45,845 nt of DNA, from the IMG/VR virus record IMGVR_UViG_3300045999_010396, positions 1-45,845 of that record, one strand, 5' to 3'. A model generated the notes under the pieces. The model was not told the origin of the DNA. It ran no database searches and worked only from the letters and a program-made list of their open reading frames with translations. The DNA comes from a virus. Positions 551 through 29,420 of the stretch are shown in pieces. Made by a program: the position numbers and the translations under genes. Every line of letters starts with the position of its first letter. Within the stretch, counting starts at the first letter, position 1.

Positions 551-1312
551 ATGAGGATTAAAATCAAAGAGGCACAACAAACGCCACAGGCGATATTCAT
601 GGCAGGCCCAGCAGGTGCAGGCAAGTCATTTATCGCCAAATCTTTGCCTCTTTCTAAATTCCAAGTTATAAATGTTGATGACACTTATGAAGAGTTACTT
701 AAGGCTTCTGGTTTAGGAATGAAACTTAAAGATTTTGGTTCTGATGAATTATCACAAGCTGCTAAGTTAATGGGTCAAGCTCAAAAAGTAACTAAGGAAA
801 AACTCAAAAAATCACTTGAAAATTTAAATGATATTATCATTGATGGTACAGGTGCGGCTTCTCGTCCTTTATTTAAGAAAAAGGCAGAATTAGAGGCTTT
901 AGGTTATGAAACTATGATGGTGATGATATATGTTTCACCTATAACTTCACTTGAACGTAATCTAGACAGGGGTGAAAATAATGGTCGTTCATTAATGCCA
1001 GGCACTGTTTTACAAACATGGGAAAAAGTGAATAGTAATATACCTATATATCAAGAAGAATTTGGTGATAATTTTATTTTAATAAATAATGATCCAAAAG
1101 ATGCTAATAAAAGTTTTGATCCACAAGAAATAAAACGTAGATTCTTTGACACTTCTAAAGCTAAAGGTAAACCAAAAACACCTGAAGAAATAGCCAAAAG
1201 AAGAGCTGAAGTAGATGCTATGAATAAGAGTATTGAACAACTAGTTAAACAACAACCAAAATTCACTTCACCAGCTGAGGCTGTTAATAAAATAAAGGCA
1301 TTTATTAAATGA
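551..1312 (+). CDS. P-loop kinase-like NTPase with putative capsid-targeting leader
   Basis: The 253-residue protein has a Walker A motif, GPAGAGKS, at residues 19-26. A phosphotransferase-like core follows, with the element IIIDGTGAASR near residues 95-105, as in AAA_33/zeta-toxin or polynucleotide-kinase-like P-loop proteins. The substrate cannot be told from sequence. The first seven residues, MRIKIKE, precede an Ala and the enzyme core starts only a few residues later. I5-K6-E7/A8 is therefore an ideal site for a T4 gp21-type prohead protease, and the leader may be a capsid-targeting peptide (inference). The C-terminal 50 residues are Lys-rich and helical. The gene overlaps the next by four bases (ATGA), which suggests translational coupling. 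Kinase identity is fairly secure; packaging is hypothetical. Confidence 0.82.
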   Translation: MRIKIKEAQQTPQAIFMAGPAGAGKSFIAKSLPLSKFQVINVDDTYEELLKASGLGMKLKDFGSDELSQAAKLMGQAQKVTKEKLKKSLENLNDIIIDGTGAASRPLFKKKAELEALGYETMMVMIYVSPITSLERNLDRGENNGRSLMPGTVLQTWEKVNSNIPIYQEEFGDNFILINNDPKDANKSFDPQEIKRRFFDTSKAKGKPKTPEEIAKRRAEVDAMNKSIEQLVKQQPKFTSPAEAVNKIKAFIK

Positions 1313-3114
1313 TAGACTTAAATACAATATTAAACGAACTAAACGAAGAGGATACTCAACAAACACCTCCAGCCATTTGTTACTATCCAGGTGGGTTTAA
1401 ACCACCACATGAAGGACATTTTGAAGTACTTAAAGATTTAGCCTCACGTCCTTATGTCACTAAAGTAATAGTATTGATTGGACATAAAACTCGTGATGGT
1501 ATAACTAAAGAACAGAGTAAACGTATTTGGGATTTATATTTAGCTACTTCTCCTATGGCTAAAGCAGTTGTAAGAATAAGTACAGATCCGTCTCCAATCA
1601 AAGATATTTTCACAGCATTTAATGATGATTTAGAGTTAAAAGCATATGTAGCCGGTGCTAAAAATGAAGTAGAAGAACAAGATTATTTCACTCCATTACA
1701 AAAAGCATTTGGTACTAGAGTAATGCCTTTACCTATTGAAGAAAAAGTAGTAACAAATAATAAACGCTTATCAGGAACTCAAGTACGTGGTTTAGTAACT
1801 AAACTTAAAGAATCAGTACTAGCTTTACGTTCAGTACCTGATAAATCATCAATTGAATATTCTAAAGCTAAAAATGAATATTTAAATAACTATAAAGAAT
1901 TAGAAGGATGTTTCCCAGAAGTTATAATACAGAAAGGTGGATTTGAAGATATACTTAAAATATTAGGAATACCAGTATTAAATGTGGACCAACTTCAAGA
2001 AAATCAAGAAGATGGTAATTTAATTATACGTGTACCTTATCGTTTAACAACTAAATTAGAGAACTATCTTAACACAATGTTGATTCCATTTGAATACTCT
2101 CAACAAGCATTTGGTGGACATGAGCGTCGTATGTTAATACCTAATTTAGGAGATAATAATGAACAGCGTGAACAAGTACTCAAATATCTATCTAAACATA
2201 ATATACCTGTTAATGTAGAAGAAGATTTATTCACTGTCAATTGGTGGAAATCAACATTAGAAGAAACACTATCAGAACCAAAAGATAAAACAGATAATAT
2301 TATAGCTGATTTTATTGATTTTACTGCTCAAGCTCTTGATTTACAAAAAGTACCTAAAATTACTTTTAGTGATGATGAGAGTTTAGCTCAAAAAATGCAC
2401 TCTTTAGGTGCTTATCAACCTAAAAATGATGAATTATTAGTTATTAAAGGATCAAGATTACCCGCTGATATTTTACGAACATTAGCTCATGAGTTAGTAC
2501 ATCGTAAACAAGCTGAAATGAGACCTTTAAAACCAGAAGATGGTAAAACAGGTTCAGAAGTAGAAAATGAGGCTAATGCTGCTGCTGGAGTATTATTAAG
2601 ACAATTTGGTAAATACAGACCAGAAATATTTTCTGAAGCAGATGCTTTAAAAGGTGATTATAAGATATATTGTGATATGGATGGTGTGTTAGTTGACTTT
2701 GATAAAGGATATAGAGAATTAACAGGCACAGAAGCTAGTTTTGATACACCAAAAGAAGAATTTTGGGAACCAATCACTAAAGCAGGAGCAGCATTTTGGA
2801 TTAAATTAAAATGGATGCCTGATGGAAAACAATTATGGGACTATATTAAACCATATAACCCAGATTTATTATCTGCTCCATCACGTGAGGAATCATCTAA
2901 AATAGGTAAACGCGTTTGGGTAAAAAGAGAATTACCAGGTACTAAACTTATTTTACGTCAAGCTGAACGTAAGCAAGAATTTTCAACACCAAACTCTATT
3001 TTAATTGATGATAGAGCTGATAATATACAACGTTGGAAAGACGCTGGTGGTGTAGGTATTTTACATACATCAGCAGCTGATACAATACAACAATTGAAAG
3101 ATTTAGGTTTATGA
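1309..3114 (+). CDS. Three-domain fusion: nucleotidyltransferase / HExxH / HAD phosphatase-like
   Basis: The 601-residue protein joins three recognisable modules. Residues 23-165 form a cytidylyltransferase-like domain with the (H)xGH signature (H34-E-G-H37) and the C-terminal SGTQVR motif (155-160), as in NMN/pantetheine-phosphate adenylyltransferases. Residues 340-425 carry HELVH (394-398), followed by the acidic stretch E417-V-E-N-E-A-N, which resembles a zincin with a downstream Glu ligand. Residues 449-601 form a HAD-like domain with D456-M-D-G and a late D567-D568, as in 5'(3')-deoxyribonucleotidases. The region between the first two modules is unassigned. NAD or nucleotide-cofactor metabolism is possible, but the fusion may act otherwise. 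The leader MIDLNTILNE fits L-x-E processing. The gene overlaps both neighbours by four bases. Confidence 0.8.
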   Translation: MIDLNTILNELNEEDTQQTPPAICYYPGGFKPPHEGHFEVLKDLASRPYVTKVIVLIGHKTRDGITKEQSKRIWDLYLATSPMAKAVVRISTDPSPIKDIFTAFNDDLELKAYVAGAKNEVEEQDYFTPLQKAFGTRVMPLPIEEKVVTNNKRLSGTQVRGLVTKLKESVLALRSVPDKSSIEYSKAKNEYLNNYKELEGCFPEVIIQKGGFEDILKILGIPVLNVDQLQENQEDGNLIIRVPYRLTTKLENYLNTMLIPFEYSQQAFGGHERRMLIPNLGDNNEQREQVLKYLSKHNIPVNVEEDLFTVNWWKSTLEETLSEPKDKTDNIIADFIDFTAQALDLQKVPKITFSDDESLAQKMHSLGAYQPKNDELLVIKGSRLPADILRTLAHELVHRKQAEMRPLKPEDGKTGSEVENEANAAAGVLLRQFGKYRPEIFSEADALKGDYKIYCDMDGVLVDFDKGYRELTGTEASFDTPKEEFWEPITKAGAAFWIKLKWMPDGKQLWDYIKPYNPDLLSAPSREESSKIGKRVWVKRELPGTKLILRQAERKQEFSTPNSILIDDRADNIQRWKDAGGVGILHTSAADTIQQLKDLGL

Positions 3115-3521
3115 TTAAATTAATTAATCTTTTAAAAGAAAATTATTCTTTTTCTCTTCCTGAAATTGAAAGAGATGAGGAAAGTAATATTTTAACTGTG
3201 ACATATAACTTTAAAACTGATAAAAATAATTATAAAGTTATTTTTAATTCATTTGAAAAGCCTAGAATTTTTGAAGTAGAGTTTGGTATAGATAAAGGAG
3301 AATTTAACGCTTTAGACACATTACAAATGACTGGTGAAGGAAATGCTTTAAAAATATTAAGTACTATAGCTGATATAATTAATAGTTTTTTACAAACTTT
3401 TCCTAATGATTATGATGAAGTATTAATAACAGGTACAACTGATAAAAGACGTGATGTATATAGAAAATTTTTTCCTAGTAAAATAAATTCAAAATATTCA
3501 GATAAAGTAATAATAAAATAA
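3111..3521 (+). CDS. Unknown protein with L-x-E leader
   Basis: I do not recognise this 136-residue protein. It begins MIKLINLLKEN, with L8-K9-E10 fitting a T4 gp21-type processing site, like several neighbours. The body has alternating beta-like strands (LTVTYNFKTD, YKVIFNSFE) and then a helix. The C-terminal part, 'DEVLITGTTDKRRDVYRKFF', resembles the end of small phage proteins in which a hydrophobic strand is followed by a YRKFF helix. The start overlaps the end of the fusion-enzyme gene (ATGA), so translation is probably coupled. Packaging in the head is inferred only from the leader. Confidence 0.65.
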   Translation: MIKLINLLKENYSFSLPEIERDEESNILTVTYNFKTDKNNYKVIFNSFEKPRIFEVEFGIDKGEFNALDTLQMTGEGNALKILSTIADIINSFLQTFPNDYDEVLITGTTDKRRDVYRKFFPSKINSKYSDKVIIK

Positions 3522-3524
3522 GTT

Positions 3525-4100
3525 ATGAGTGAACATAATTTAAAGAAAGAGTTTTCGAAACGTGATGTACAAAGAATGAGAAATATCATCACAGGTAACG
3601 CTGGTGGTTCTACAGGTATTCAAGTAGGTTATACTAAACAATCTCAAGATTATCAAGAAGGAGATATATGGGAAGAGAATGGTAAAAAATGGACTATTAA
3701 AAATGGTATTAAACAAACTATCACTAAACATGATAAGTTAAGACAATTAGTTACTATGCCTTTATCTTGTCCTAGTTGTGATAAACCAATGAAAAATAAT
3801 GTTTATAATAAAAAAATGTTTAGTCTTCATAACATGTGTTTTGATTGTGTTATTGATATGGAGGCTAAAATTAAACATAGTGGAAAATGGGATGAATATG
3901 AGAAAGGTATATTAAATGCTAATAAAAATGATAATGTTGATGATTTTGAAAAAGCTGTTGAAGAATATATACATATTCAACATGGATCATATTTTAGTGA
4001 AAATGGTGATATAGAATCATGGAGTGGTGGTAAAATTAATGAAGAAGAAATAAAAAATGTTAAAGAATATATCAAAAAGTTGCGTGAGACACAAATATAA
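3525..4100 (+). CDS. Conserved phage protein with two CxxC pairs
   Basis: This 191-residue protein has a central segment, EGDIWEENGKKWTIKNGIKQ, followed by a four-Cys cluster: C82-P-S-C85 and C105-F-D-C108. The cluster could bind zinc as a small ribbon or knuckle. The C-terminal half is helical and charged. I recall closely similar small proteins from other T4-like phages, but none has an established function. The N-terminus (MSEHNLKKEFSKRDVQRMRN) lacks the I/L-x-E leader seen next door, although VQRMRN slightly recalls the RMQ motif elsewhere in this window. The gene starts three bases after the previous stop. Confidence 0.68.
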   Translation: MSEHNLKKEFSKRDVQRMRNIITGNAGGSTGIQVGYTKQSQDYQEGDIWEENGKKWTIKNGIKQTITKHDKLRQLVTMPLSCPSCDKPMKNNVYNKKMFSLHNMCFDCVIDMEAKIKHSGKWDEYEKGILNANKNDNVDDFEKAVEEYIHIQHGSYFSENGDIESWSGGKINEEEIKNVKEYIKKLRETQI

Positions 4101-4102
4101 AG

Positions 4103-4110
4103 ATATTTAT
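4103..4110 (+). promoter_or_regulatory. ATATTTAT motif
   Basis: A copy of the recurrent octamer lies in the short gap after the stop at 4100, 26 bases before the ATG at 4137. That is a reasonable promoter-to-start distance. Confidence 0.4.
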
Positions 4111-4136
4111 GTGTAACCTTTAATGATTTGATAATA

Positions 4137-4430
4137 ATGGATAATAGCATTTGGACCGTTTTAATAACAGCTGTTACTGTATTAGGTAGCACCCAAGCTT
4201 TTCGATACTATGAGCGTAGAGCTTTACATAAAGAACGTGATGAAGATTTTATTCGCCATGATTGCAAAGATCGTATAGCTAAATTAGAGGCACTACTTGA
4301 AGACTCTAAAGAAGAAAAAGAAGAAATGCGTAATTTAATTTTAAAATTAACTTCTGAAGTAGCTGAATTACGTACTAAAGTTGAGTTTTTAACAACAGAA
4401 AATAATAAGTTAATTAAATCTATTAAATAA
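4137..4430 (+). CDS. Membrane-anchored coiled-coil protein
   Basis: The 97-residue product has one N-terminal hydrophobic segment (about residues 5-20, IWTVLITAVTVLG), then a basic stretch (FRYYERRALHK). A long charged coiled coil with heptad-like leucines fills residues 40-97. I chose the ATG at 4137; an in-frame TTG lies three codons upstream. The layout fits an inner-membrane protein with a soluble coiled coil and is compatible with a spanin-like or membrane-tethering role. No lysis gene is recognisable beside it, so the function stays open. Confidence 0.6.
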   Translation: MDNSIWTVLITAVTVLGSTQAFRYYERRALHKERDEDFIRHDCKDRIAKLEALLEDSKEEKEEMRNLILKLTSEVAELRTKVEFLTTENNKLIKSIK

Positions 4431-4455
4431 AATATAATTTACTTAATAGATAAAT

Positions 4456-4463
4456 ATATTTAT
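4456..4463 (+). promoter_or_regulatory. ATATTTAT motif upstream of the Dps-like gene
   Basis: A copy of the recurrent octamer lies in the 54-base gap after the stop at 4430, 21 bases before the ATG at 4485. Confidence 0.4.
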
Positions 4464-4484
4464 GTAGGATAAAACCTATATAAG

Positions 4485-5060
4485 ATGCCTTATACTCGTA
4501 AAGGAAATTGCGTATATAAAGAAACTGGTAAGAAAATGGGCTGTTCTAAAGACACAACAGCCGCTGAGAAATATATGAAAGCGTTATATGCTGCTGAAGA
4601 TGGAAATCTTAAAGAAGGATTTGAACCAGAAACAATCAATCCAGACCAACCAGAATTAGCTGTGACTATTGAGTTACCTAATCCAACACAAACAATGGCT
4701 AATTTTGTATCAACATTTTTTGCTTCCCGTACACAAGCTCATATATTCCATTTACAAGTAACAGGACCAGGCTCATATGCTAAGCATAAAGCCTTAAATA
4801 AATACTATGAAGATATTATAGATTTAATTGACGCTTTAGTTGAATCATTTCAAGGTCGTTATGGTATTATTACAGGTTATACTTGTGAAAAACAATGGAT
4901 TGAAAATCCAAATGATACTATAAAATATTTTGAGGCTTTATGCATGTATGTAGAAAAAAATCGTCATTCATTACCTCAAGATTCATATATTCAAAATCAA
5001 ATTGATGCTTTTATTGAGTTAATTGAATCAACTAAATATAAATTAGTAAATCTACAATAA
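4485..5060 (+). CDS. Dps/ferritin-like protein with N-terminal Cys element
   Basis: The 191-residue protein has a helical domain (about residues 65-190) that aligns by eye with Dps. H89-L-Q-V-T-G-P and A-K-H101-K line up with the H51 and H63 regions of E. coli Dps, and D116 and E120 with D78 and E82, at the same spacings. The Dps D67 position is Asn here. These residues form the intersubunit ferroxidase site in Dps, so iron binding and oxidation is plausible. The first 40 residues (MPYTRKGNCVYKETGKKMGC) are a separate small element with two Cys. A linker, NLKEG (L42-K-E44), could be cut by a gp21-type protease. DNA binding or protection inside the head or host is inference. I recall related ferritin-like phage proteins filed under DUF numbers, but could not check. 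Confidence 0.72.
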   Translation: MPYTRKGNCVYKETGKKMGCSKDTTAAEKYMKALYAAEDGNLKEGFEPETINPDQPELAVTIELPNPTQTMANFVSTFFASRTQAHIFHLQVTGPGSYAKHKALNKYYEDIIDLIDALVESFQGRYGIITGYTCEKQWIENPNDTIKYFEALCMYVEKNRHSLPQDSYIQNQIDAFIELIESTKYKLVNLQ

Positions 5061-5434
5061 TGCGTATTCGTATAGTTAAAGAAGAAGATTTTACACCTAT
5101 TGCTAATCCAAAGGAACCAAAACCTGAGGCTAAGCAATTTCAAATATTAGCATCAATGATCACTAACACTAAAGTTAATGATCAAACTAATATTCTATCT
5201 GCTATGCGTGCATTACCAGGGGTCACTATTGTTAACTCACAAGCAGCTGTTCCTGGATCAAATTCAGAAGGACAACTACGCTATAAAACAAATGTTGATA
5301 TTAAAATTGACACTTCAGCTTTAGAAGGTGATGTAAAAGCAGGTATTAAGAAAATAGTTGAAGATATTAAAAAAATTGAAGGTGTAGTTGAATTTAAAAT
5401 ATTACCAAAAGCAAAAGAAACAACTCCATATTAA
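5060..5434 (+). CDS. Unknown protein with V-x-E leader
   Basis: This 124-residue protein has no recognised family. It begins MRIRIVKEEDF, with V6-K7-E8, nearly the same leader as the ParB-like protein at 25004 (MRIRIIKEDEN). A Pro/Lys-rich linker follows. Residues 30-120 then resemble a compact alpha/beta ferredoxin-like fold (ILASMITNTK, LPGVTIVNSQ, YKTNVDIKID, IEGVVEFKIL). The start overlaps the previous stop by one base (TAATG). The leader suggests an internal head protein; the function is unknown. Confidence 0.65.
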   Translation: MRIRIVKEEDFTPIANPKEPKPEAKQFQILASMITNTKVNDQTNILSAMRALPGVTIVNSQAAVPGSNSEGQLRYKTNVDIKIDTSALEGDVKAGIKKIVEDIKKIEGVVEFKILPKAKETTPY

Positions 5435-5435
5435 T

Positions 5436-5918
5436 ATGAAACTAATAGACATTTTAAAAGAAAATTTAAGTGAAGTTAAATTTAAAGATATTCTAAAACC
5501 TTTACAAACGGCTTTAGAAAGCATGGGATATGATTATTATGAAGGAGATTATGGAGATCAATATTTTTCAAAAGATATTAATGCTGATACTAACACTCCA
5601 AGTAGAATATATATAAATATTTCTCCTTCTGTAGAAGAAAGAAGATCAAAAGATCAAGGCGAAAATCCACTAGGGCTTGGTCAATATACAACAGTTGATT
5701 TACTTATGTCATTTTATACTTGGTCAATAAATCGTAAATTCTTTGGTTTATATAAAAAAAAGGAATTAACAAAAGATCAAAATTTAGCTGGAGCTGAAGG
5801 TTTAAATATTGATTTAGGATCTGGTATGTTTGATATTCCTGTTGAAGAAGCTGTACAAAGAATTGTAAGTTTAGTTAAAAAAGGTGAGGCTAAAATTGCT
5901 AGTGAAATTAATCAATAA
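5436..5918 (+). CDS. Unknown protein with L-x-E leader
   Basis: The product is 160 residues from the ATG at 5436, one base after the previous stop; a longer in-frame ORF reaches back into the preceding gene. The start MKLIDILKENLSE gives L7-K8-E9 at the expected cleavage point. The body includes a Tyr-rich segment (GYDYYEGDYGDQYF) and a beta-rich middle (PSRIYINISPSVEE), then an amphipathic helix (VEEAVQRIVSLVKKGE). I do not recognise the fold. Confidence 0.65.
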   Translation: MKLIDILKENLSEVKFKDILKPLQTALESMGYDYYEGDYGDQYFSKDINADTNTPSRIYINISPSVEERRSKDQGENPLGLGQYTTVDLLMSFYTWSINRKFFGLYKKKELTKDQNLAGAEGLNIDLGSGMFDIPVEEAVQRIVSLVKKGEAKIASEINQ

Positions 5919-5922
5919 ATTA

Positions 5923-6786
5923 ATGAACAAGATACAATTAAAAGAACATATTGAAAAAATTATTAACTATGTAGGCCAAGAATATAATCATGGTCCTAAA
6001 TTAGTTATGAATGAATCTAAAGAACCTGTCTTCATTTCTGAAGGTATGTTTTACCATATTGAAAATAATTTACCACTTAATGAATCAATATACCGTCCTC
6101 AATCATCAATGTTTTTAAAACTATTTGTTGAGGCAAGAAATTTATATGATTCTAAGCGTTTAACATTATGTGAGGCTGATCAATACTATTTTGATAATAC
6201 TGATATTGGTAAATTTGGTGAGTACAATGGTATTAAAGTACCACTAGACTTACCCTTGACCGAGGAATTTTTAACAGAAGCATTAGGTGAAGGAACATTT
6301 AACTCACAAAAACACATAGCTACATTCTCAGGACCTGATGGTGTTGCTGATGTGTATAAGATGTCTGATGGTACTTATTATGCTCAAGTAGAAGGTGATC
6401 CTGATTATGACATGGTAGCTAAGGACGTCGCTGAAATGGCCGCTAAATTAAAAAGAGATGGTTTAATAACACGTGTCGCTGGTGAATTAAATGAATCATT
6501 AAGTGAAGAAAAAAAAGATCCACCAATTGGTAAACCAAAACGTGGTGGTTCTAAAAAATTCTATGTGTATGTTAGAGATAAAGGTAAAGTAAAAAAAGTA
6601 TCATTTGGTATGGCAGGTGGAGGCTTAAGAGCCAAACTAAACAATCCAAAAGCACGAGCGGCGTTTTCTAAACGTCATAACTGTCCACAGAAAAAAGACA
6701 GAACTAAAGCATCATATTGGAGTTGTCGTTTACCTCGCTATGCTAAATTATTAGGATTTAAAACAACATTTAGTGGATATTGGTAA
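5923..6786 (+). CDS. Phage protein with conserved Cys/Arg-rich C-terminal domain
   Basis: The product is 287 residues from the ATG at 5923, chosen because it follows the previous stop by four bases; an in-frame start 39 bases upstream would overlap. MNKIQLKEHIEK places L6-K7-E8 as a possible processing site. The last 75 residues form a distinct basic domain: strands (KFYVYVRDKG, KVKKVSFGMA), then RHNCPQKKDR, YWSCRLPRYAK and a terminal FSGYW. I recall this C-terminal module on many T4-like phage proteins with different N-termini, always of unknown role. Its RHNC...WSC pair could bind metal. The N-terminal part is acidic and mostly helical. Confidence 0.7.
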   Translation: MNKIQLKEHIEKIINYVGQEYNHGPKLVMNESKEPVFISEGMFYHIENNLPLNESIYRPQSSMFLKLFVEARNLYDSKRLTLCEADQYYFDNTDIGKFGEYNGIKVPLDLPLTEEFLTEALGEGTFNSQKHIATFSGPDGVADVYKMSDGTYYAQVEGDPDYDMVAKDVAEMAAKLKRDGLITRVAGELNESLSEEKKDPPIGKPKRGGSKKFYVYVRDKGKVKKVSFGMAGGGLRAKLNNPKARAAFSKRHNCPQKKDRTKASYWSCRLPRYAKLLGFKTTFSGYW

Positions 6787-7013
6787 TGATTAGTTTAATT
6801 AAAATATTAAAAGAAGGAAAAATTGAATACCCAGCTGATCATCAGCCAGGTATGCGTGTCACTAAAGGTGGTTCAATGTGTACTAATTGTGAATATTGGA
6901 TAGCTGAGGGTAACAAATGTAATAATGAATATTGGCTTCAATGGAATGATGGTGATGAACAAGTTCCATATCCTGCTGATGAGTATTGTTGTAATTGGTG
7001 GCATGCTAAATAA
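6786..7013 (+). CDS. Small Cys-rich protein, possibly metal or Fe-S binding
   Basis: The product is 75 residues from the ATG at 6786, which shares one base with the previous stop (TAATG). The leader MISLIKILKEGK contains L8-K9-E10. Five Cys follow: C32-x2-C35-x9-C45-x22-C68-C69, with many aromatic residues (EYW, EYWLQW, CCNWW). Cys spacing with nearby Trp resembles high-potential iron-sulfur proteins but is not an exact match, so zinc or iron-sulfur binding is only a suggestion. If the leader is removed, the mature protein would be about 65 residues. Confidence 0.68.
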   Translation: MISLIKILKEGKIEYPADHQPGMRVTKGGSMCTNCEYWIAEGNKCNNEYWLQWNDGDEQVPYPADEYCCNWWHAK

Positions 7014-7019
7014 ATTAAT

Positions 7020-7283
7020 ATGAGTCAACCATATACAGATCTGTTAGTGACAGATGAATATATAATTAGGGAATTTGATGAAAACATTGACCCTATAGAA
7101 TTAATGTGGCATCGAGATGATGAAAATAGGTTGGTTGAAGCTATAGAACATACAGATTGGTTAGTACAACTTGATAATCAACTACCAGTATCTATGACCC
7201 AACCAATATTTATACCACGTCATATGTGGCATAGAACTATAAAAGGTACAGGCAAATTAAAGATAAAAATATACAAATCGTGA
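7020..7283 (+). CDS. Small cupin-like conserved phage protein
   Basis: The 87-residue protein contains the pattern EYIIREFDE...PIELMWHRDDENR...WLVQLDNQLP...IFIPRHMWHR, ending in a Lys/Ile strand. His residues in WHRD and MWHR, separated by beta-like strands, suggest a single-domain cupin barrel (inference). I recall similar small proteins from diverse large phages. There is no I/L-x-E leader. The last ten codons lie in the first copy of a 32-base direct repeat, so this gene's end doubles as the start region of the next gene. It overlaps that GTG start by four bases. Confidence 0.65.
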   Translation: MSQPYTDLLVTDEYIIREFDENIDPIELMWHRDDENRLVEAIEHTDWLVQLDNQLPVSMTQPIFIPRHMWHRTIKGTGKLKIKIYKS

Positions 7284-7285
7284 AA
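7254..7285 (+). repeat. Direct repeat copy 1 (32 bp)
   Basis: This segment matches 7540-7571 over 32 bases with two differences. It ends in the start region of the gene at 7280, where the start codon is GTG; in the second copy it is ATG. The two copies bracket the whole 7280-7537 gene. Confidence 0.85.
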
Positions 7286-7537
7286 CAAAACATTAACGAA
7301 ATTAAGAAAATGCAGCGTTTAGCTGGTATTAAAATAAACGAAGCTGATGATATATTTAATAACCAACATTCAGTTAGTGATGAAAATTATAAGAAAATGG
7401 ATGGCTTAGTTAATAGAGACGATTATAATAATTTTATTAACTCAGCTACTAATATAATGCGTGATCTAACTAATGAAGGAATTGAAGTAAAAGATATATT
7501 TTATTATCTTTACACTAGATTAACAGCTGAAGTATAA
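7280..7537 (+). CDS. Small protein with RMQ-LAGI-like motif and INE/A site
   Basis: The 85-residue product starts at a GTG (7280). The N-terminus MKQNINEIKKMQRLAGI matches the C-terminal end of the scaffold protein (IRRMQQLAGI) and of the ParB-like protein (INRLKKLAGL). It is followed at once by K-I19-N-E21/A22, a good gp21-type cleavage site. The rest is helical with no known domain. Direct repeats flank the gene, so it looks like an insertion or one product of a tandem duplication. The shared motif suggests an interaction partner in the prohead core (inference). Confidence 0.65.
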   Translation: MKQNINEIKKMQRLAGIKINEADDIFNNQHSVSDENYKKMDGLVNRDDYNNFINSATNIMRDLTNEGIEVKDIFYYLYTRLTAEV

Positions 7538-7539
7538 AA

Positions 7540-7571
7540 AAATTAAAGATAAAAATATATAAATCATGAAA
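7540..7571 (+). repeat. Direct repeat copy 2 (32 bp)
   Basis: This is the second copy of the repeat at 7254-7285. Here it is intergenic until it supplies the ATG at 7566. The base changes relative to copy 1 are one C/T and one G/A, the latter converting GTG to ATG. Confidence 0.85.
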
Positions 7572-8000
7572 AAATCTGAATTAAAACAATTAATCAGAGA
7601 GGCAATTGAAGAAATTAAACCAGTAGAAGAAGCTAAGGAAGACTTCGCTCCTGAGACTGACGAAATTGGCTCATTTTGGGTAGTAGAAAAACCATCTACT
7701 AGCGCTACTCTAGACGATATTTGTTTTGAATGTGAAAATATCGCTTACTTGATTAACCAAGTTCGTGGTGGTTTAAGCGAAAAAGATATCAAAGGTGTAT
7801 TCTTTAAAGAAGCTAAAGCTAAAAAATTAGCAGAAAAATTATTAGCTGATCGTGATAAGAAAAAAGATGAAGTAAAACAAGCTGCTGAGGCTTATAAGAA
7901 AATGAAAGAAGAAACTTTAGCTAAGGTACAAGAGTACATGAAAAACAAGAAAGCTACTAAAGATGTAGTTGATGAGCTAAAAGATTTAACTGATAAATAA
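7566..8000 (+). CDS. Helical internal-protein candidate
   Basis: The 144-residue protein begins MKKSELKQLIREAIEE, with I10-R11-E12/A13 as an ideal I-x-E/A processing site. It shares the MK-K/R-SELK start with the next gene. A short acidic linker (VEEAKEDFAPETDE) leads to a middle segment (SATLDDICFECENIAYLINQVRGG) and a Lys/Glu-rich coiled coil at about residues 80-144. Small, charged and helical is the typical make-up of T4 internal head proteins. No enzyme motif is visible. Confidence 0.65.
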   Translation: MKKSELKQLIREAIEEIKPVEEAKEDFAPETDEIGSFWVVEKPSTSATLDDICFECENIAYLINQVRGGLSEKDIKGVFFKEAKAKKLAEKLLADRDKKKDEVKQAAEAYKKMKEETLAKVQEYMKNKKATKDVVDELKDLTDK

Positions 8001-8287
8001 TGAAACGCTCTGAATTAAAAAATATAGTTAAGGAAATTATTGAAGCTGAGATAGGTCAAGCTGAAATTGATCCTGCAACTGGCGTAAAAACTACCCTATC
8101 ACGTGTTGATCCTGAGACAGGACGTCGTGAATGGGATGTAGAATATCCTGTTGATCCTGAATTTTTATATAATAAACTAGAAGATCTAGTTAAATATATG
8201 TCTAAAGTTGAAAAAGGATCAGAATTAGGCCAAATTAGAGATATCATTAAAACTTTAAAAAATAAAACAGCTAGACTAATTAAATGA
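8000..8287 (+). CDS. Small internal-protein candidate, sister of the preceding gene
   Basis: The 95-residue protein begins MKRSELKNIVKEIIEAE, closely like the preceding MKKSELKQLIREAIEE, with V10-K11-E12 at the same position. A segment rich in DPATG/DPETG turns follows, then a C-terminal helix (LEDLVKYMSKVEKGSEL, IRDIIKTLKNKTARLIK). The shared leader with unrelated bodies suggests leader swapping or partial gene duplication. The start overlaps the previous stop by one base. Confidence 0.62.
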   Translation: MKRSELKNIVKEIIEAEIGQAEIDPATGVKTTLSRVDPETGRREWDVEYPVDPEFLYNKLEDLVKYMSKVEKGSELGQIRDIIKTLKNKTARLIK

Positions 8288-8652
8288 TTCGTTTAACTGA
8301 TATACTAATTGAGTCACTTCTTGAAAAGAAAAAAGATCGTTGCCATCGTATAGCTGATAGACGTTATGATAAACCATCTGCTTATAAATCAGGGGCTATT
8401 GTACGTTGTCGTCAAGGTAAAATTTGGAAAGGTCTTAAAGAAGATGAATCATTACATAAATGGTTTAAACGTTCTGGTCCTAAAGGTAAAGAAACTGGTT
8501 GGGTAGATTGTAATGCTCCTGATGGAAAAGGTGGATATAAAGCTTGTGGTAGAAAAGAAGGTGAAAAAAGATCAAAATATCCTGCTTGTAGACCAACACC
8601 AGCTGGATGCAAGAAAAAAGGTAAAGGAAAAACTTGGGGTAAAACTAAATAA
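8284..8652 (+). CDS. Small basic Cys-containing phage protein (DUF5872-like)
   Basis: The 122-residue protein begins MIRLTDILIESLLEKK, with L8-I9-E10. The body is strongly basic and contains SLHKWFKRSGPKGKETGW, then VDCNAP, KACGRKEGEKR, KYPACRPTPAGC. These Cys could bind zinc. The pattern is one I associate with the small phage family DUF5872, recalled and not checked. The N-terminal half (RCHRIADRRYD, PSAYKSGAIVRCRQGKIWKG) is a second conserved basic element. A DNA- or RNA-binding role would fit the charge (inference). It overlaps the previous gene by four bases. Confidence 0.7.
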   Translation: MIRLTDILIESLLEKKKDRCHRIADRRYDKPSAYKSGAIVRCRQGKIWKGLKEDESLHKWFKRSGPKGKETGWVDCNAPDGKGGYKACGRKEGEKRSKYPACRPTPAGCKKKGKGKTWGKTK

Positions 8653-8653
8653 T

Positions 8654-9328
8654 ATGAAAGACAATTTTAATATACATAACTGGCGTTTAAAAATATCCAT
8701 AAATGAGTTAGAAGAAAAACAATGCCCAGATTGTGGATGTAAAATGGAAGATACAATGTGTAATGAGTGTGGTTACATGGAAGAAGGTGCTACATTCACT
8801 AGCAAACACGATGATAATCCTAAATTAAAGGGTGGTCAAAAAGATTTACCTGATGAAGTACAAGATAAAATTGTAGCTAAAGAAGATAATCAAAATAATT
8901 TAACTCCACTTCAACAATACATTTATGATTACGAAGTAGAGATTAGTGGTGATAATTTCGCTAATAAAGAACTTGAAAATATTAAAAAACTTAACAACAT
9001 TGATGATGTTAAGAAATATTATGGTGGATATAGAGGATGGGCTGTTGATAAAGATCTTAAATATGAATTTTATAATCTAATCAAAGCATTAAAGTCACAA
9101 AATTTAAAAGAAGAAGAAAGTGGAGATCATGAAGTGTTTATGGCTAAAAGAAGTCTTCAAGCTATTATGGGCGCTTGTTCTAAATTAATGTTGGCTTTAG
9201 GAGAAGAAGAACGTAATATACCTGGATGGATTCAAGATCATATTGTTAACGCTGAAAACTATATTGAACAAGCAGCTCAAGGATTCCATGAATTAGATAA
9301 TGATGACTCAGAATATGAAGAAGATTAA
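8654..9328 (+). CDS. Zinc-ribbon-containing protein
   Basis: The product is 224 residues from the ATG at 8654, placed just after the previous stop; an in-frame ORF extends back inside that gene and is not credible. After ISINELEEK come paired knuckles CPDCGC and CNECGY, a compact zinc ribbon at about residues 24-41. A linker (TFTSKHDDNPKLKGGQKDLP) leads to helical segments of unknown fold. The site I16-N-E18 or L19-E-E21 lies just before the ribbon. The end is very acidic (DNDDSEYEED). The gene overlaps the next one by 14 bases. Confidence 0.68.
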   Translation: MKDNFNIHNWRLKISINELEEKQCPDCGCKMEDTMCNECGYMEEGATFTSKHDDNPKLKGGQKDLPDEVQDKIVAKEDNQNNLTPLQQYIYDYEVEISGDNFANKELENIKKLNNIDDVKKYYGGYRGWAVDKDLKYEFYNLIKALKSQNLKEEESGDHEVFMAKRSLQAIMGACSKLMLALGEEERNIPGWIQDHIVNAENYIEQAAQGFHELDNDDSEYEED

Positions 9329-10952
9329 AATCATAAGATCAAGACCATTAAAAGAAGAGGAAGAAGTAATTGATCAACAGTCTCAAGATATAGCTCCTGA
9401 GACTCCTGAAATTACTTATGAATCTAATCCTTTAGAGTTTATGTTAATGAAGTATCCAACATTAACTAAAACTTTAACTGATTTATTAACAGAAAATTTT
9501 AGAGATTATATCACTGGTGTTTATATAATGGCACCAAAACCAACTATATTTAAAATTGTTTTGCATAATAATCGCTCATTTCATTTAATATTCATGGGTG
9601 ATGACAAATATGAAGCTAAAGTTAGTGGTAAAAAATATTGGTTAGCTAGTGTTAGTGATTTTGAAAATGCTGTTATGTCTATAGCTGATCTATTAATGTT
9701 AGGTACTCCACCAACAACTCAAGGACCTGAGACTGAAATGGCTTCTACTTCTGAAGAAACACCTGAAGAAACACCTGAAGAAACACCAGCTGAAACTCCA
9801 GAAGAACCTGAAGAATTAGCTGAATCTAAAAAAAAATATAGTTTACTTTTATTAGAATTGAAAAAATTATCATACGATGTTTTATCTCCTGATGCTAAAA
9901 AAATAGCTCAAGATTTGATAAAAAAATTAAAAATATCTAAAGACCAAATCCAACCAGCATCAGCTAATAATATTGTTATATATGATGATGATAGAAAAAA
10001 ATTAATAAATCAAACAGCTGAGCTTGGAATTTATGGTGACATAACTCAACCAAACTCTGGTGATTTTAAAGTTGGTAAAGTTACTATAACTTTTAAACCA
10101 TTAAAAACAAGTGGTGAGTTTTATGAGTTGAAACCTCAATCTTTAGGTGTTACTACAGACAAATATATTTCTATAAACCAGTTAAAAAAAGAATTAACAA
10201 ATGGAATTCAAAACCATAAAAATTTAACTGATGAACAAAAGAAATTTATTTTAGCTCTTATAACTGGTAAAAATACTTTAACACCTGATGAAAAACAAAC
10301 AGTGTTATCTGATAATTATTTTATAAAAGAAGTATTAAAAAATTTAGGTGAATTATTAGGCGCTATATTATATGCTAAAGAAAATAATGGTGTAGCTGTA
10401 TTTTTCCCTGCAGCTGGTAATTATCCTTTAGTTGATTACTTTGTTAAAAAAGATGATGGAAGTGTAGTTGACATTAGTGCTAAAACTTCTAAAGGTAAAG
10501 GAAATATTATCAAAGTACCAGACATTAATAAAAAAATTAAAGATGCTAATGGTAAAATAAATCCAGAAGTTCAAAAAATGTTTGATATAGTTTCTAGTAA
10601 TGGTGGTAAGGAAGGTTCATTAAAACTTATACCTGAATTTGGAAACAATGTTTTAAAAGCTAGTTATAAAAAGTTTTTAAAATCTAATCCTAATTTTCCT
10701 AAAAAATATAACACAACAGATAGAATTAATTTAGAAAAAGCTATTATCAAACAACTAAACGAGAGATTCAAGTCAGAGTTTGTTGATATATTTAAAAAAT
10801 ATGTTGATACACAATATGTTAAATATAATTTTGATCCTAATTCTTTAAAATCTGATATAAAAGTTATTAAAGGTGAAGATTTTGATGTTTATTTGGCAAC
10901 CAAAAATAGTGTGAATCATGATGGTGAACGAATAGGTTTCCAATTAGCTTAA
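9315..10952 (+). CDS. Large protein with possible PD-(D/E)xK-like core
   Basis: The product is 545 residues from the ATG at 9315, preferred over one five codons upstream because it begins MKKIKIIRSRPLKEEEE like the neighbouring leaders (L12-K13-E14). Residues 45-135 form a compact domain. A Thr/Pro/Glu repeat linker (EETPEETPEETPAETPEEP) and a Lys-rich C-terminal half follow. The C-terminal half contains FFPAAGNYPLVDYFVKKDDG, then VVDISAKTSKGKG. A D...(I)SAK pattern recalls the PD-(D/E)xK nuclease core, but this is weak. The gene closes the first cluster, with a terminator about 60 bases downstream. Confidence 0.62.
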   Translation: MKKIKIIRSRPLKEEEEVIDQQSQDIAPETPEITYESNPLEFMLMKYPTLTKTLTDLLTENFRDYITGVYIMAPKPTIFKIVLHNNRSFHLIFMGDDKYEAKVSGKKYWLASVSDFENAVMSIADLLMLGTPPTTQGPETEMASTSEETPEETPEETPAETPEEPEELAESKKKYSLLLLELKKLSYDVLSPDAKKIAQDLIKKLKISKDQIQPASANNIVIYDDDRKKLINQTAELGIYGDITQPNSGDFKVGKVTITFKPLKTSGEFYELKPQSLGVTTDKYISINQLKKELTNGIQNHKNLTDEQKKFILALITGKNTLTPDEKQTVLSDNYFIKEVLKNLGELLGAILYAKENNGVAVFFPAAGNYPLVDYFVKKDDGSVVDISAKTSKGKGNIIKVPDINKKIKDANGKINPEVQKMFDIVSSNGGKEGSLKLIPEFGNNVLKASYKKFLKSNPNFPKKYNTTDRINLEKAIIKQLNERFKSEFVDIFKKYVDTQYVKYNFDPNSLKSDIKVIKGEDFDVYLATKNSVNHDGERIGFQLA

Positions 10953-13744: not shown

Positions 13745-14713
13745 ATGGCAGATAATTTTGATATTAAAAAATTCATCACAGAAGCAAAACTTAAAATTAA
13801 AGTTCCTGTAAAAGAAATGGCTCGTGTCGCTAAAGAAAAATACAAACTTAATACAGGATTTCCTCAAATTAAAGATAGAATTGAAAATCCAAGTAATTAT
13901 AAATTAGATCGTAAACAACAAGTGATTAATTACTTTATTAAAAAAGCAAGTGATGAAAATGTTGATCCAATGGAAGTTGAGTTATTAAAAAGCGATATTG
14001 AAAAAAATGCTGCTCCTGGTGTCAATTGGTCTTTTACTCCTGATATTCGTAATCAACTCTTACAAGCGACTACTATTAAACCTGAAAAAGCTACTGATGA
14101 AGAACCAGGAGATGATGATCTATTCGCTGGTGATTTAGACGCTGAAGATATGCTTATTGGTAAGGCTAAACTTAAAAGTAAAAAAGCAAAACCAGAGACA
14201 GGAGATGAAGAAGAACCATCTGAAAAAGATATAGCTAAAGTTAAAGCGCCTAGAATAACAGCTACTGGTTCTAAAGCTGGTGAGTGGTTTATGGATAATG
14301 ATAGTTTAATTGATAAAATTATTAAACAATATTCTCAATCACAAATTAAAACAGGTCGATCAGTTAAAGAAGCTGAAGATGGTGGATTATCAAGCGCTGA
14401 TTTTAAAGCAGCTCAACAAGCTTCTAAAGAAAGAGCTAAAACAATGTTGCCTGATTTAATACAAAAACTTGTAAATAATCTTGAAAAATTAAAAGATGAA
14501 GATTATAATGTTTATGTTAAAGTATTAAATGATCTTGATAAGTATAAATTTAGTGTCACTAATACTAAAGGAGTTATGAGAATGATTCTTAAAGCGTTAG
14601 GTGAAGATTCAATGCCCGCTATTGGATCTAAAAGAAAAAGTGATGATGATGAGCTTAAAAAACTTGGAATTGATGATGAACCTATTAATATTGATGGTGA
14701 AGAAGAACTTTAA
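13745..14713 (+). CDS. Internal head-protein candidate with MADNFD leader
   Basis: The 322-residue protein has no recognised domain. It starts MADNFDIKKFITEAKLK. The KFITE/A segment is nearly the T4 internal-protein targeting peptide pattern EFIAE/A, so I11-T12-E13/A14 is a good predicted cleavage site. The protein at 21287 shares the leader (MADNFDMKKFLVENKLG) but not the body. Residues 100-150 are an acidic/Lys-rich low-complexity stretch and the rest is helical, with an acidic tail (DDDELKKLGIDDEPINIDG). Role inferred: prohead core or packaged protein. Confidence 0.68.
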   Translation: MADNFDIKKFITEAKLKIKVPVKEMARVAKEKYKLNTGFPQIKDRIENPSNYKLDRKQQVINYFIKKASDENVDPMEVELLKSDIEKNAAPGVNWSFTPDIRNQLLQATTIKPEKATDEEPGDDDLFAGDLDAEDMLIGKAKLKSKKAKPETGDEEEPSEKDIAKVKAPRITATGSKAGEWFMDNDSLIDKIIKQYSQSQIKTGRSVKEAEDGGLSSADFKAAQQASKERAKTMLPDLIQKLVNNLEKLKDEDYNVYVKVLNDLDKYKFSVTNTKGVMRMILKALGEDSMPAIGSKRKSDDDELKKLGIDDEPINIDGEEEL

Positions 14714-21286: not shown

Positions 21287-22555
21287 ATGGCAGATAATTT
21301 TGACATGAAAAAATTCCTAGTTGAAAATAAATTAGGAGCTTATTCTAAATTAAAAGAAGATGTAAATAATGAACCTGTAGAAGAAGCAAGTAAAAATGAT
21401 TATGATAGTTTAATGTCAAAGCTATTTGCTATTCAAAAGAAATACGGATATAAAAAAGCTAGACCTGATCAGGAAGAATATGAGAATGTAAGAATTACAC
21501 CATCCGTGGAAAGAGTAGGTAGTAAAATTATTAAAGATGGTGGAATTTCAGTTTCTATTGAAAGTAAAGTAAGTAAAGCTGCTTTCACTGACATTAAAAA
21601 TTTACTTCAAACAAAATTTTCTGATTGGAAAATAGATCCTCAAAGTGTTACTAAAGATGATGATTTTGATACTGATTCTAAGAATGTATTATTCTTTGAT
21701 ATAGTGAAAAATAAATCTGTTAAAGAAGATTACGCTGGAGCTGAAGAAGAAAAAATGATGGATTTCTTAGCTGAAAAACCAGTAAAAGAAGTAAAGCGTT
21801 TAAGACCAAAAGAATATTATCAAATTCTAGATAATGGAACAGGTGAATGGAATGACGGTTTTAAATATATAGGAGACATTGATGGTGGATCTACAGTAGG
21901 AGAAATAGGTGATCATATGTTCATGGCTCCTACAGGTCCTGATGCTTTTATATTTGTAAATATATCTGACGCTGATTTAGATACTATGGTTAGATATGAT
22001 ATGAATGAAAATAAAAAACCAGTAGAAGAAGCAGGTCAAGGTACTCTTATGACTGTTGATAGAATTGAAGAAATTGTTAATAATTTAGCTCGTAATATTT
22101 CAACTAACTCAAATATTTCAACACAAGAAAAACTTGGTTTAGTACAAGCTCTTAAAGAATTAAAAGACTTAGTTGAAGATTTAGGTGCTGATGTTGAAAT
22201 GGGTATGGATGAGACTAAAAAAGAAAAACTATCTAAACTAAATGAAAACTTAACACCTTTACATAAACAACTAATTAAAAATATTGTTGATAACTACTTT
22301 GATGGTGGTATTGATGCTGATCCAGCTATGGAAAGAATTGAAAGAATATTAAATGATGATTTAAGTTGGGAAGAACTTGATAGTGAAGATCTTCAAGATC
22401 TTAAAGAAGAATCTGTTCGTATGTTTAAATCAGATAATCCAGAGGGTGATAAATTAGTATTAGGTTTTCTTAAAAGAATAGCTAAAGACTTTAACTATCC
22501 AGTATCTCAAGCAGCTATGTTTGTTAAAGAAAGAATTAAAAAATTAGGATATTAA
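21287..22555 (+). CDS. Internal head/core protein candidate with MADNFD leader
   Basis: The 422-residue protein begins MADNFDMKKFLVENKLGAYS, matching the start of the gene at 13745. L11-V12-E13 fits a gp21-type site. After an acidic linker, residues 40-140 form an alpha/beta domain (LMSKLFAIQKKYGYKKARPD, SVSIESKVSKAAF). A second module near 165-240 has the GTGEWNDGFKYIGDIDGG and GDHMFMAPTGPDAFIFV stretches. The C-terminus is helical, including NIVDNYFDGGIDADPAMERI and VSQAAMFVKERIKKLGY. Several LxE sites in linkers (KPVEEA, VKED) may also be cut. It lies between the portal and protease genes, as T4 core genes do. Function unknown. Confidence 0.66.
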   Translation: MADNFDMKKFLVENKLGAYSKLKEDVNNEPVEEASKNDYDSLMSKLFAIQKKYGYKKARPDQEEYENVRITPSVERVGSKIIKDGGISVSIESKVSKAAFTDIKNLLQTKFSDWKIDPQSVTKDDDFDTDSKNVLFFDIVKNKSVKEDYAGAEEEKMMDFLAEKPVKEVKRLRPKEYYQILDNGTGEWNDGFKYIGDIDGGSTVGEIGDHMFMAPTGPDAFIFVNISDADLDTMVRYDMNENKKPVEEAGQGTLMTVDRIEEIVNNLARNISTNSNISTQEKLGLVQALKELKDLVEDLGADVEMGMDETKKEKLSKLNENLTPLHKQLIKNIVDNYFDGGIDADPAMERIERILNDDLSWEELDSEDLQDLKEESVRMFKSDNPEGDKLVLGFLKRIAKDFNYPVSQAAMFVKERIKKLGY

Positions 22556-22704: not shown

Positions 22705-24378
22705 ATGACAACATTAGAATTATATCGTAAACATAAGAATGGCGAAGTTAGCCGTGAAAAATTCTTATATGAAGTAAGACGTGATAATAACTTACCATTT
22801 ATCACTAATTTAACATCATATGATGACGCAGTTAAAATCCTTAAAAACAAAGGTATTGTAACTGAAGTTGATACTAAAGAAGCTAAGGCAGATGAAGCAG
22901 TTAAAGCTGAAATTAAAGCTAAAGCTCCATCAACTAAAAAACCAAAAGAACTTCATATTGATTATGCTAACCCATATGAATATCGTCATGGTTTACAATA
23001 TGAATTAGATAAATTAGATGATTATAGTGATGAGGCTTTAGAAAAAGCTAAGTCAATTGTGTTAAAAAATTTAGCTAAAGATGCTAATTTTTATTCTAGT
23101 TTATTAAACCAACAACAATCTCATTACCAATTCAAACAAACTGAAACTGACAAGCCTGGTATGCAAGCCAATGCTGATGGTTATTTAAAGAAAGAAGCTA
23201 AAAAAGATGAGAAATCTAATGTACAAGATTCATTAGGTAAAAAAGAGGCTGGTAAGAAAAAACCTAAAGGTATTAAAATAATGCCTGATAAAGGTGTAAC
23301 TGGCTCTGAAAAAACTATTAAAGAAGGTATTGATGATAAAGTAGAGGACATGATTAAATCAGGTGAAATAAAACCTGAAGAAGTAAAGGCAGCCGCTGAA
23401 AAAGCTATGAAAGGTGATTCAACATCTCTAGTAGCATTAATGGCTGGTCTTAAATTAGCTGAGGATACTATGGAAGAAGGTATTAAAGGAAATTTTGATG
23501 ATGATGATAACACATACACTTATGATCATCTTATCAATACTGATTCTCCTAGTAAAGAACAATTAAAAAATGTATTAAACATTATAAAAAAAGATAAAGA
23601 AGATTTAGAAAAGAAAGGTAAGAAAACCAAAGTAGTTAAAGGTGACACAGTACCTTATTTAGAATTAGTTGAAACTGTTAAAGAAGATACACTTACAGAA
23701 GTAATATTAAAAATATATAATTATGATGCTTCATCAGGTGATTTAGAAGATGTTGAAGTTGAATATTTTGGATCTGAAGATGAAGCTAAAAAAGCTGCTT
23801 TAGCACACCATTGGCAAATAGCTTTTGATAATGGTGATACTGAACTTAGTAAAGATGAATTTGTAGCTCAAACTAATTTTGATGATTTAGAGTCATATGA
23901 AAATTATGATTATGTAATAGCACCTGATAAAGGTGGCATTAAAGAAGATATGGAAGAAGGCTCATTTATGGGTGGTGTTGATTTAGGTTCATCATCTGAT
24001 ATGAATGCTGAAGATCAATTCGCTCAACTAATGGACAAATATGATTGGTATTATGAGATGAGTGATGATCCAAGAGCTTATGATCGTGGTGTTGTTCTAG
24101 ACAAACAATTAAAAACATTAGGTAAACAAATTGGCGCTGATAAAGCTGTAGCTATGTTTAACGCTAAAGCTCCATCTGATCGAAAAGTGACTAATACTTT
24201 CTTTATGGAAGGAGAAGATAAACATGCTAAAATTAAAGAAGCTTTAAAAAAAGCTTTAAAAGAAGCTGATCCTACAGTGACTAAATTAGAGAAAGATATA
24301 GAGAGAAAAGAATTAGAAATGGCTGACTTAATGACTAAACAAGCTACCATACTTAAAAAACCAGGAACCCAAGGATAA
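22705..24378 (+). CDS. Prohead-region multi-linker protein
   Basis: The 557-residue protein opens with a helical module (MTTLELYRKHKNGEVSREKF, then LPFITNLTSYDDAVKILKNK). I have seen similar modules on several T4-like phage core proteins. A long Lys/Glu/Ala-rich stretch follows, including AAAEKAMKGDSTSLVALMAG and an acidic segment. Near residues 330-400 is a beta-type domain (ILKIYNYDASSGDLEDVEVE, AHHWQIAFDNGD), and the end is a coiled coil. There are many I/L/V-x-E sites in linkers. The low-complexity linkers and the position just before the protease suggest a core protein degraded on maturation. No enzymatic motif is visible. The ATG overlaps the protease start by one base at the 3' end (TAATG). 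Confidence 0.66.
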   Translation: MTTLELYRKHKNGEVSREKFLYEVRRDNNLPFITNLTSYDDAVKILKNKGIVTEVDTKEAKADEAVKAEIKAKAPSTKKPKELHIDYANPYEYRHGLQYELDKLDDYSDEALEKAKSIVLKNLAKDANFYSSLLNQQQSHYQFKQTETDKPGMQANADGYLKKEAKKDEKSNVQDSLGKKEAGKKKPKGIKIMPDKGVTGSEKTIKEGIDDKVEDMIKSGEIKPEEVKAAAEKAMKGDSTSLVALMAGLKLAEDTMEEGIKGNFDDDDNTYTYDHLINTDSPSKEQLKNVLNIIKKDKEDLEKKGKKTKVVKGDTVPYLELVETVKEDTLTEVILKIYNYDASSGDLEDVEVEYFGSEDEAKKAALAHHWQIAFDNGDTELSKDEFVAQTNFDDLESYENYDYVIAPDKGGIKEDMEEGSFMGGVDLGSSSDMNAEDQFAQLMDKYDWYYEMSDDPRAYDRGVVLDKQLKTLGKQIGADKAVAMFNAKAPSDRKVTNTFFMEGEDKHAKIKEALKKALKEADPTVTKLEKDIERKELEMADLMTKQATILKKPGTQG

Positions 24379-28904: not shown

Positions 28905-29420
28905 ATGCAAAATCAAATTGATATAGCTAAACATCCTTATGGTTTAGGTGGAAATTCAGTGTTAACAGGATCTATGTCTGTATCTGGACAATTCTTTTGG
29001 TTTTATCCTGTATCATCATCTGTAGCTACTATTAAATTTGCCGATGGTATAACTTTAGGTGCTTTAACTTTTACAAATGGTATTGGTGTTCAAGGATTTA
29101 TTACTGAAGTAACTCAATCATCAGGAGCTTCTATAGTTTATAATGGCGCCGCTGATGCTCCAACATATAATACTTTCAATCCATTTATAAGCGCCACACC
29201 AACTACAACTCCAACAGTTACACCAACTATTAGTGTTACACCAACTATATCTATTAGTGCTACACCTAGTGTAACTCCTAGTGTGACTCCTAGTATTAGT
29301 ATTAGCAGAACTCCAAGTGTTACACCAACTATTAGTGTGACACCAAGTATTAGTGTAAGTATTAGTGTGACTCCTAGTATTAGTAGAACACCAAGTGTAA
29401 CTCCAACAGCTAGTGCTTAA
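28905..29420 (+). CDS. Virion protein candidate with Thr/Pro/Ser repeat tail
   Basis: The 171-residue protein has an N-terminal beta-rich domain of about 90 residues (KHPYGLGGNSVLTGSMSVSG, VATIKFADGITLGALTF). The C-terminal half is made only of TPSVTP, TPTISV, SISVTP and similar units. The tail has no charged residues apart from a few Arg. It probably extends as a flexible, possibly glycosylated stalk. The protein at 32802 has the same kind of repeat at its N-terminus. Its place right after the capsid gene suggests a capsid-decorating or tail-surface protein (inference). Confidence 0.65.
   Translation: MQNQIDIAKHPYGLGGNSVLTGSMSVSGQFFWFYPVSSSVATIKFADGITLGALTFTNGIGVQGFITEVTQSSGASIVYNGAADAPTYNTFNPFISATPTTTPTVTPTISVTPTISISATPSVTPSVTPSISISRTPSVTPTISVTPSISVSISVTPSISRTPSVTPTASA

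Follow-up and report, generated by a model that had tools for sequence, protein, structure and literature searches.

Our analysis suggests that phages of a T4-like group probably pack at least a dozen different proteins, some of them enzymes, into the head for delivery into the next host cell. About one gene in 15 in this group encodes a short N-terminal leader, and targeting to the prohead followed by processing of the gp21 type is quite likely the best explanation of these leaders as read from the sequences. In phage T4, the internal proteins IPI-III and Alt carry a capsid-targeting sequence, MKTYQEFIAE, that is processed by gp21.

The window, meaning the whole stretch of DNA analysed, comprises 45,845 bases of a T4-like phage with genes for terminase (16095), portal (17718), protease (24378), putative scaffold (25938) and major capsid protein (27133). 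Judged by protease identity, Flavobacterium phage immuto (56%) is its closest named relative, followed by Microcystis phage Mel-JY01 (53%); megablast of window positions 1-25000 against phage records gave no match. Gene order in immuto is as in the window: NadR-like nucleotidyltransferase, deoxyribonucleotidase, terminase, portal, protease, the scaffold position and capsid. The relevant head genes of the window are these:

22705..24378, + strand: head-cluster protein directly upstream of the protease, without a leader in the window
24378..25007, + strand: gp21-family prohead protease (phrog_207, E 1e-53)
25938..27104, + strand: putative gp22-type scaffold, acidic, between the protease and the major capsid protein, ending in IRRMQQLAGIVK (class C core, see below)
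27133..28812, + strand: major capsid protein of the gp23 type, predicted to be cut after L-[VI]-x-E at residues 56-59

That the phage encodes a gp21-like protease, as the sequence-only reading had stated, was confirmed both by the PHROGs match and by 34% identity to T4 gp21 over 163 residues (E 3e-24), in an alignment that pairs His- and Ser-containing motifs (ELDHP with ELNHP, GISSRG with GVSSRG). The Glu of L-[VI]-x-E in the capsid protein is invariant in 35 relatives, at the site matching the T4 gp23 cut. Relatives of the 22705 protein in loci L002-L004 and L006 begin with MKKPINEVERLKLIAGLINE, a class C leader. Elsewhere in the window, a protein of 3,193 residues (34995-44576) consists mainly of SGTSGTSG-type repeats and is likely a fibre, and VTPSISVTPSVTPS repeat proteins (28905-29420 and 32802-33497) adjoin head and neck genes. 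In Mel-JY01, a ribosomal protein S21 gene (L186:22183-22410) lies between the prohead protease and the scaffold position.

Gene calling in 181 loci (the window and relatives) yielded 2,530 distinct proteins. These were clustered on their bodies, leaving out residues 1-20, which gave 633 clusters; N-termini were compared only across different clusters. Among the cluster representatives, 1,838 pairs scored at least 30 over residues 2-16; shuffled N-termini gave 42 such pairs, and residues 31-45 gave 116. The numbers at a score of at least 40 were 725, 0 and 58, respectively. The shuffles and internal controls rule out chance or composition as the cause of the common leaders, and the expectation that leaders would be commoner than chance was borne out. 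Under stricter profile thresholds, 142 of the 633 body clusters contained a leader-bearing member. The single motif originally perceived gave way to at least six separate classes: A, MKKSELKQLIKEEI; B, MIKLIDILKE; C, MKxxINEIKRMQQLAGIINE, also given as MKQQINEIKRMQQLAGIINE; D, MADNFDLKKFLVENK; E, MRIKIKE; and F, FNIHDWQAK. The class E motif was found at 40 N-termini and at 0 of 12,411 internal methionines. One protein (L102:18888) bears two leader elements, class D and then class C. The class profiles also give false positives, some terminases and one portal scoring as class A or D, so that a match by itself is no proof of packaging. The leader-bearing genes of the window, including weak candidates, are as follows (a slash marks the end of the leader):

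551..1312, + strand: P-loop kinase (Zeta toxin/PNK-like), class E leader MRIKIKE/A
1309..3114, + strand: nucleotidyltransferase motif (GFKPPHEGH), HELVH and HAD 5'-deoxyribonucleotidase, leader MIDLNTILNE of the T4-type 10-residue pattern
3111..3521, + strand: DUF6934 protein, class B leader MIKLINLLKE
5060..5434, + strand: body of no assigned family, class E leader MRIRIVKE
5436..5918, + strand: body of no assigned family, class B leader MKLIDILKE
5923..6786, + strand: phrog_7595-like protein, weak candidate, start MNKIQLKE
6786..7013, + strand: small Cys-rich protein, class B leader MISLIKILKE
7280..7537, + strand: class C member, GTG start MKQNINEIKKMQRLAGIKINEA, leader MKQNINEIKKMQRLAGIKINE/A
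7566..8000, + strand: class A member, leader MKKSELKQLIRE/A
8000..8287, + strand: class A member, leader MKRSELKNIVKE; body relatives with class B, D or F
8284..8652, + strand: DUF5872-like protein (below the Pfam cut-off), class B leader MIRLTDILIE
8654..9328, + strand: protein with a Cys-rich CPDCGCK..CNECG segment, class F leader MKDNFNIHNWRLKISINELEE
9315..10952, + strand: 545-residue protein, weak candidate, start MKKIKIIRSRPLKE
13745..14713, + strand: class D member, leader MADNFDIKKFITE/A; class A (MKKSELKEYIKDRI) on body relatives
21287..22555, + strand: class D member between portal and protease, leader MADNFDMKKFLVE
25004..25795, + strand: ParB-like (DGHHRW) protein, class E leader MRIRIIKE and C-terminal LAG tail INRLKKLAGL

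At all 15 starts named in the sequence-only reading (551, 1309, 3111, 5060, 5436, 5923, 6786, 7566, 8000, 8284, 8654, 9315, 13745, 21287 and 25004), the frames open with the leader described. Most of that list held; 5923 and 9315 are weak, resembling the starts of unrelated bodies in the general pattern only, and the class C gene with its GTG start at 7280-7537 had been overlooked. A relative of the latter (L123:12574) has an ATG start and begins MKKQLNEIKRMQQLAGVINENQ. The protein encoded at 57-539, which starts MRIIEIEANI and ends in repeated GGKRGRPK units (AT-hook-like), possibly has a further leader.

The enzymes proposed among these proteins were largely recovered. Family profiles agree on the P-loop kinase at 551 (Zeta_toxin/AAA_33; PF06414, E 2e-12; PF13671, E 2e-8), which has a Walker A motif and a PDB match to 1gvn. 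In the fusion at 1309, the HAD part was identified from PHROGs and the nucleotidyltransferase motif by eye, and HEL[VI]H is conserved in 13 of 13 aligned relatives; this HELVH (HExxH), situated between the nucleotidyltransferase-like and HAD parts, might belong to a metallopeptidase. The ParB-like label at 25004 comes from the DGHHRW motif, seen by eye; no Pfam or PDB match was found, and an AlphaFold model made without an alignment was poor (pLDDT 38). PDB searches for the 1309 family, 9315 and 25004 returned nothing useful. A cultured relative of the 3111 protein is encoded by immuto (24569-24994), with leader MIKLIDLLTE and body motifs common to both by eye. Families found among leader-bearing representatives were Zeta/AAA_33 kinases, deoxyribonucleotidase and, weakly, nucleotidyltransferase, and the protein L129:3018 matched the polyvalent-protein ADP-ribosyltransferase family (E 3e-6, just under the Pfam cut-off); the majority of leader-bearing bodies had no family match.

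The ends of the leaders resemble cleavage sites. Against a background of 2.3% per position, 71% of class A representatives have [ILVMF]xE at residue 12 (with a further peak of 38% at residue 20), 64% of class B at residue 10, 56% of class C at residue 20 and 48% of class D at residue 12 (further peak at residue 18). Conservation in class B was 3.9 bits at Glu10 but 1.3 bits at residue 11. Cleavage by gp21 follows L/I-x-E (PMC9026906), and the likeness of the leader ends to gp21 sites, already remarked upon, was upheld, as the majority finish in [IL]-x-E.

In T4 IPIII, residues 4 and 7 matter for targeting and residues 8 and 10 for processing (PMC9026906). On these residues we built the pattern M..h..hh.E, where h is hydrophobic. 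Among 104 T4 proteins it matched only gp24, ipII and ipIII, and it matched 0 of 431 internal methionines, a perfect result that is partly built in because the pattern was chosen knowing T4; the test in the relatives is independent. All three T4 proteins have a short N-terminal peptide that is removed by gp21 (PMC9958956). In the relatives, the pattern was present at 128 of 2,530 N-termini compared with 35 of 12,341 internal methionines (odds ratio 18.7, p 2e-67). Its matches in the window are 1309, 3111 and 6786. Hydrophobic residues at 4, 7 and 8 with Glu10 hold for class B; the remaining classes differ in geometry. When scored against every class profile, the leaders of T4 ipI-III, Alt and gp24 stayed within background. 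The leaders described here may therefore be said to work like T4 targeting, not to be homologous to it; homology to MKTYQEFIAE was rejected, as the class-profile scores were not significant and the position pattern alone agrees. In Synechococcus phage S-RIM2, the 108-residue hypothetical protein SWTG_00074 (L191:10850-11176) starts MKSYKQFMSESVNIS, near T4 MKTYQEFIAEA, and is a candidate internal protein of a cyanophage.

The core of class C, [RK]MQxLAGI, was found 97 times in the relatives where 0.4 were expected: 46 elements in the first 25 residues (35 clusters), 44 at the very C-terminal end (15 clusters) and 7 internal, with L124:12274 carrying the core at both ends. The C-terminal elements are mostly on the protein whose gene directly precedes the capsid gene, the tails reading IRRMQQLAGIVK in the window, SRWQKLAGIIK in immuto and ERMKKLAGIVK in Mel-JY01. 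The tail of the putative scaffold is the class C core, which, like the C-terminal core of the 25004 protein, the sequence-only reading had passed over. Neither hhalign nor hmmsearch picked up homology of the scaffold candidate to T4 gp22, so its identity is assigned from position and acidic composition. An independent IMG/VR scan for DNA encoding MQ[QK]LAGI gave at least 83 in-frame matches. Among the matches listed, at least 58 were C-terminal, at least 18 N-terminal, at least 6 internal and 1 without an assigned place; 76 of 83 were at a protein end, and 63 of 80 loci had T4-type head genes in the fetched stretch.

Leaders are also exchanged on homologous bodies, namely the kinase, dNT and ParB-like families and three further ones. 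Kinase bodies carry MRIRIKE, MIKLTDLLKE, MKLLDILKE or none (in L083 and L091, an in-frame stop precedes the leaderless kinase), the deoxyribonucleotidase body has a class B leader or none, the KCPAPTQN body class B or D, and the GYVEMMGP body class A, D or F. The ParB-like family displays MRIRIIKE in the window, MGILKQLLKE in Mel-JY01 and MAKYKLSSFLSEA in L017. Since some orthologues are without a leader, packaging would not be required in each phage. Codon identity at leader residues in common was 0.62-0.68 compared with 0.58 expected, so the codons agree barely above the codon-usage expectation, and it is the peptide, not the DNA, that is conserved. These patterns indicate that the leaders are real and selected as peptides.

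It is accordingly very hard to credit that the leaders are recombination by-products, in which 5' gene ends with the start region and ribosome site were copied and the peptide has no role. Upstream DNA is slightly more similar in class C (0.44) and class D (0.43), versus 0.34, and same-locus codon identity is slightly over expectation (0.68 versus 0.58), but the peptide is fixed while its codons are almost free to vary, the LAG element stands at C-termini too, and the [IL]xE end is common to different classes; recently copied 5' gene ends are ruled out by the codon variation. An address elsewhere, for instance through amphipathic helices for the host membrane or a replication compartment, is improbable: classes A and B do appear amphipathic by eye, whereas class C is not a simple amphipathic helix, and the prohead is indicated by the T4 pattern, by leader ends of the gp21 type and by the LAG element on the protein whose gene lies between those for protease and capsid.

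There is some, albeit small, chance that the leaders dock core or scaffold parts or assembly enzymes for assembly only, and that these proteins are then degraded or left behind without injection. In T4, gp22, gp67 and gp68 are mostly digested by gp21 (PMC9958956); here, the leader-bearing proteins at 21287 and 25004 are encoded in the head-core gene cluster, and class C is found on relatives of the 22705 protein. Nevertheless, many bodies are folded enzymes (kinase, dNT and ADP-ribosyltransferase-like among them) or small accessory proteins, with a patchy distribution and leaderless relatives, which fits cargo better.

Under strict criteria, immuto had 14 leaders among 228 genes, a 174-kb relative 15 among 231, and 100 kb of a further relative 9 among 162, or roughly 9-15 per 100-175 kb in whole genomes; at internal methionines, these criteria gave about 0.4-0.8%. 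In the 10 kb preceding the protease gene, 8-24% of genes have leaders, compared with 3 of 170 (2%) downstream of the capsid gene, and leaders distant from the head cluster occur as well (immuto 1803, 24569 and 25061). In the cultured phage immuto, the same leader classes are present at annotated starts. Examples of its leader-bearing proteins (phage immuto 2-6A, NC_055915) are those encoded at 102294, 103366, 103806, 111675, 113188, 117631 and 118632. Mel-JY01 (190 kb) had no class-profile match and five matches to the T4 pattern, four of them class B-like. Neighbouring paralogues of Mel-JY01 (L187:10276-12718), a phage recorded with a Microcystis host, start MIKLKSLLQE and MIKLMSLVTE, have an ISDRVWHLT body in common and are likely leader-bearing. 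A tblastn search of 50,697 phage records matched class C and D leaders only in the four immuto records, which rules them out as common phage sequences. Our literature search found no virion proteomics for this phage group, immuto and Mel-JY01 included.

Returning to prohead targeting, we infer from these data the scaffold assignment together with the following course of docking, cleavage, packaging and injection. During late gene expression, the leader would bring its protein into the core of the growing prohead, either by attaching to the scaffold or, in class C, through the short element that also forms the scaffold's own C-terminus. Once the shell is closed, the gp21-like protease would cut after [IL]-x-E and free the mature proteins inside the head, where they would be kept with the DNA and most probably be ejected into the next host cell; such delivery is a likely prediction. 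The capsid-targeting analogy first drawn is supported in part: its core has the gp21 homologue, the [IL]xE ends, the class B pattern, the scaffold tail and the leader exchange in its favour, and the notion of one leader falls away. We consider it somewhat more likely than not that one phage lineage has a modular packaging code of at least six interchangeable leaders, probably with separate docking sites in the core, that serves some 10-20 proteins per genome; one leader would copy the scaffold's docking tail, and a gene gaining a leader would become virion cargo.

If so, the packaged and injected proteins of a large aquatic T4-like group could be read from sequence, and many uncharacterized bodies would become candidates for counter-defence in the first minute. 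Two leads on T4 head assembly also follow, one on the recruitment of core proteins and one on a possible docking site common to scaffold and cargo. Immuto grows on Flavobacterium sp. LMO8, which makes a direct test possible; if confirmed, the leaders would be ready-made tags to load proteins into phage heads.

As in T4 internal proteins, a short N-terminal leader with an L/I-x-E end is placed on unrelated bodies in a genome with a gp21-family protease, and class B resembles the T4 targeting sequence at positions 4, 7 and 8 (hydrophobic) and 10 (Glu). Unlike T4 with its one leader, at least six classes are found here and are swapped between orthologues; the class C element recurs at the C-terminus of the putative scaffold, and predicted enzymes are among the putative cargo. 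The T4 gp24 propeptide MAKINELLRE, which is removed by gp21 (PMC9958956), has the length of 10, the hydrophobic positions and the final Glu of class B, although gp24 is a shell vertex protein, not cargo, and the profile similarity of its leader alone is not significant. The idea of a packaged set far beyond that of T4 should be tempered, as at least 10 internal proteins are reported in T-even phages (PMC12373910) and more than 50 gene products in the SPN3US capsid (PMC10052503). The three internal proteins of T4 block particular restriction enzymes of type IV (PMC12373910).

Phages phiKZ and SPN3US place many proteins in one head, as would the phages here, and have N-terminal propeptides removed after x-E (by protease gp245 in SPN3US). 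These propeptides differ in being mostly long (111-254 residues); the cut motif in SPN3US is A-x-E, and 42 of its head proteins are uncut (PMC10052503); we found no report of exchangeable short leader classes in either phage. The N-terminal 30 residues of P1 DarB send a reporter into the capsid (PMC9024508), an N-terminal signal as proposed here, but the P1 Dar proteins have no consensus among them (PMC9024508), unlike our leader classes. Polyvalent proteins, predicted to be packaged in heads and injected, combine several domains, among them ADP-ribosyltransferase, metallopeptidase and ParB-like ones (Iyer et al. 2017, PMC5512222). Both the 1309 protein and L129:3018 are reminiscent of them, and the parts of that account we drew on describe no short leader code (PMC5512222). 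Precedents for packaged proteins are therefore known from T4 internal proteins, P1 DarB and SPN3US; what is new is the existence of several interchangeable leaders, one of them common to a putative scaffold tail.
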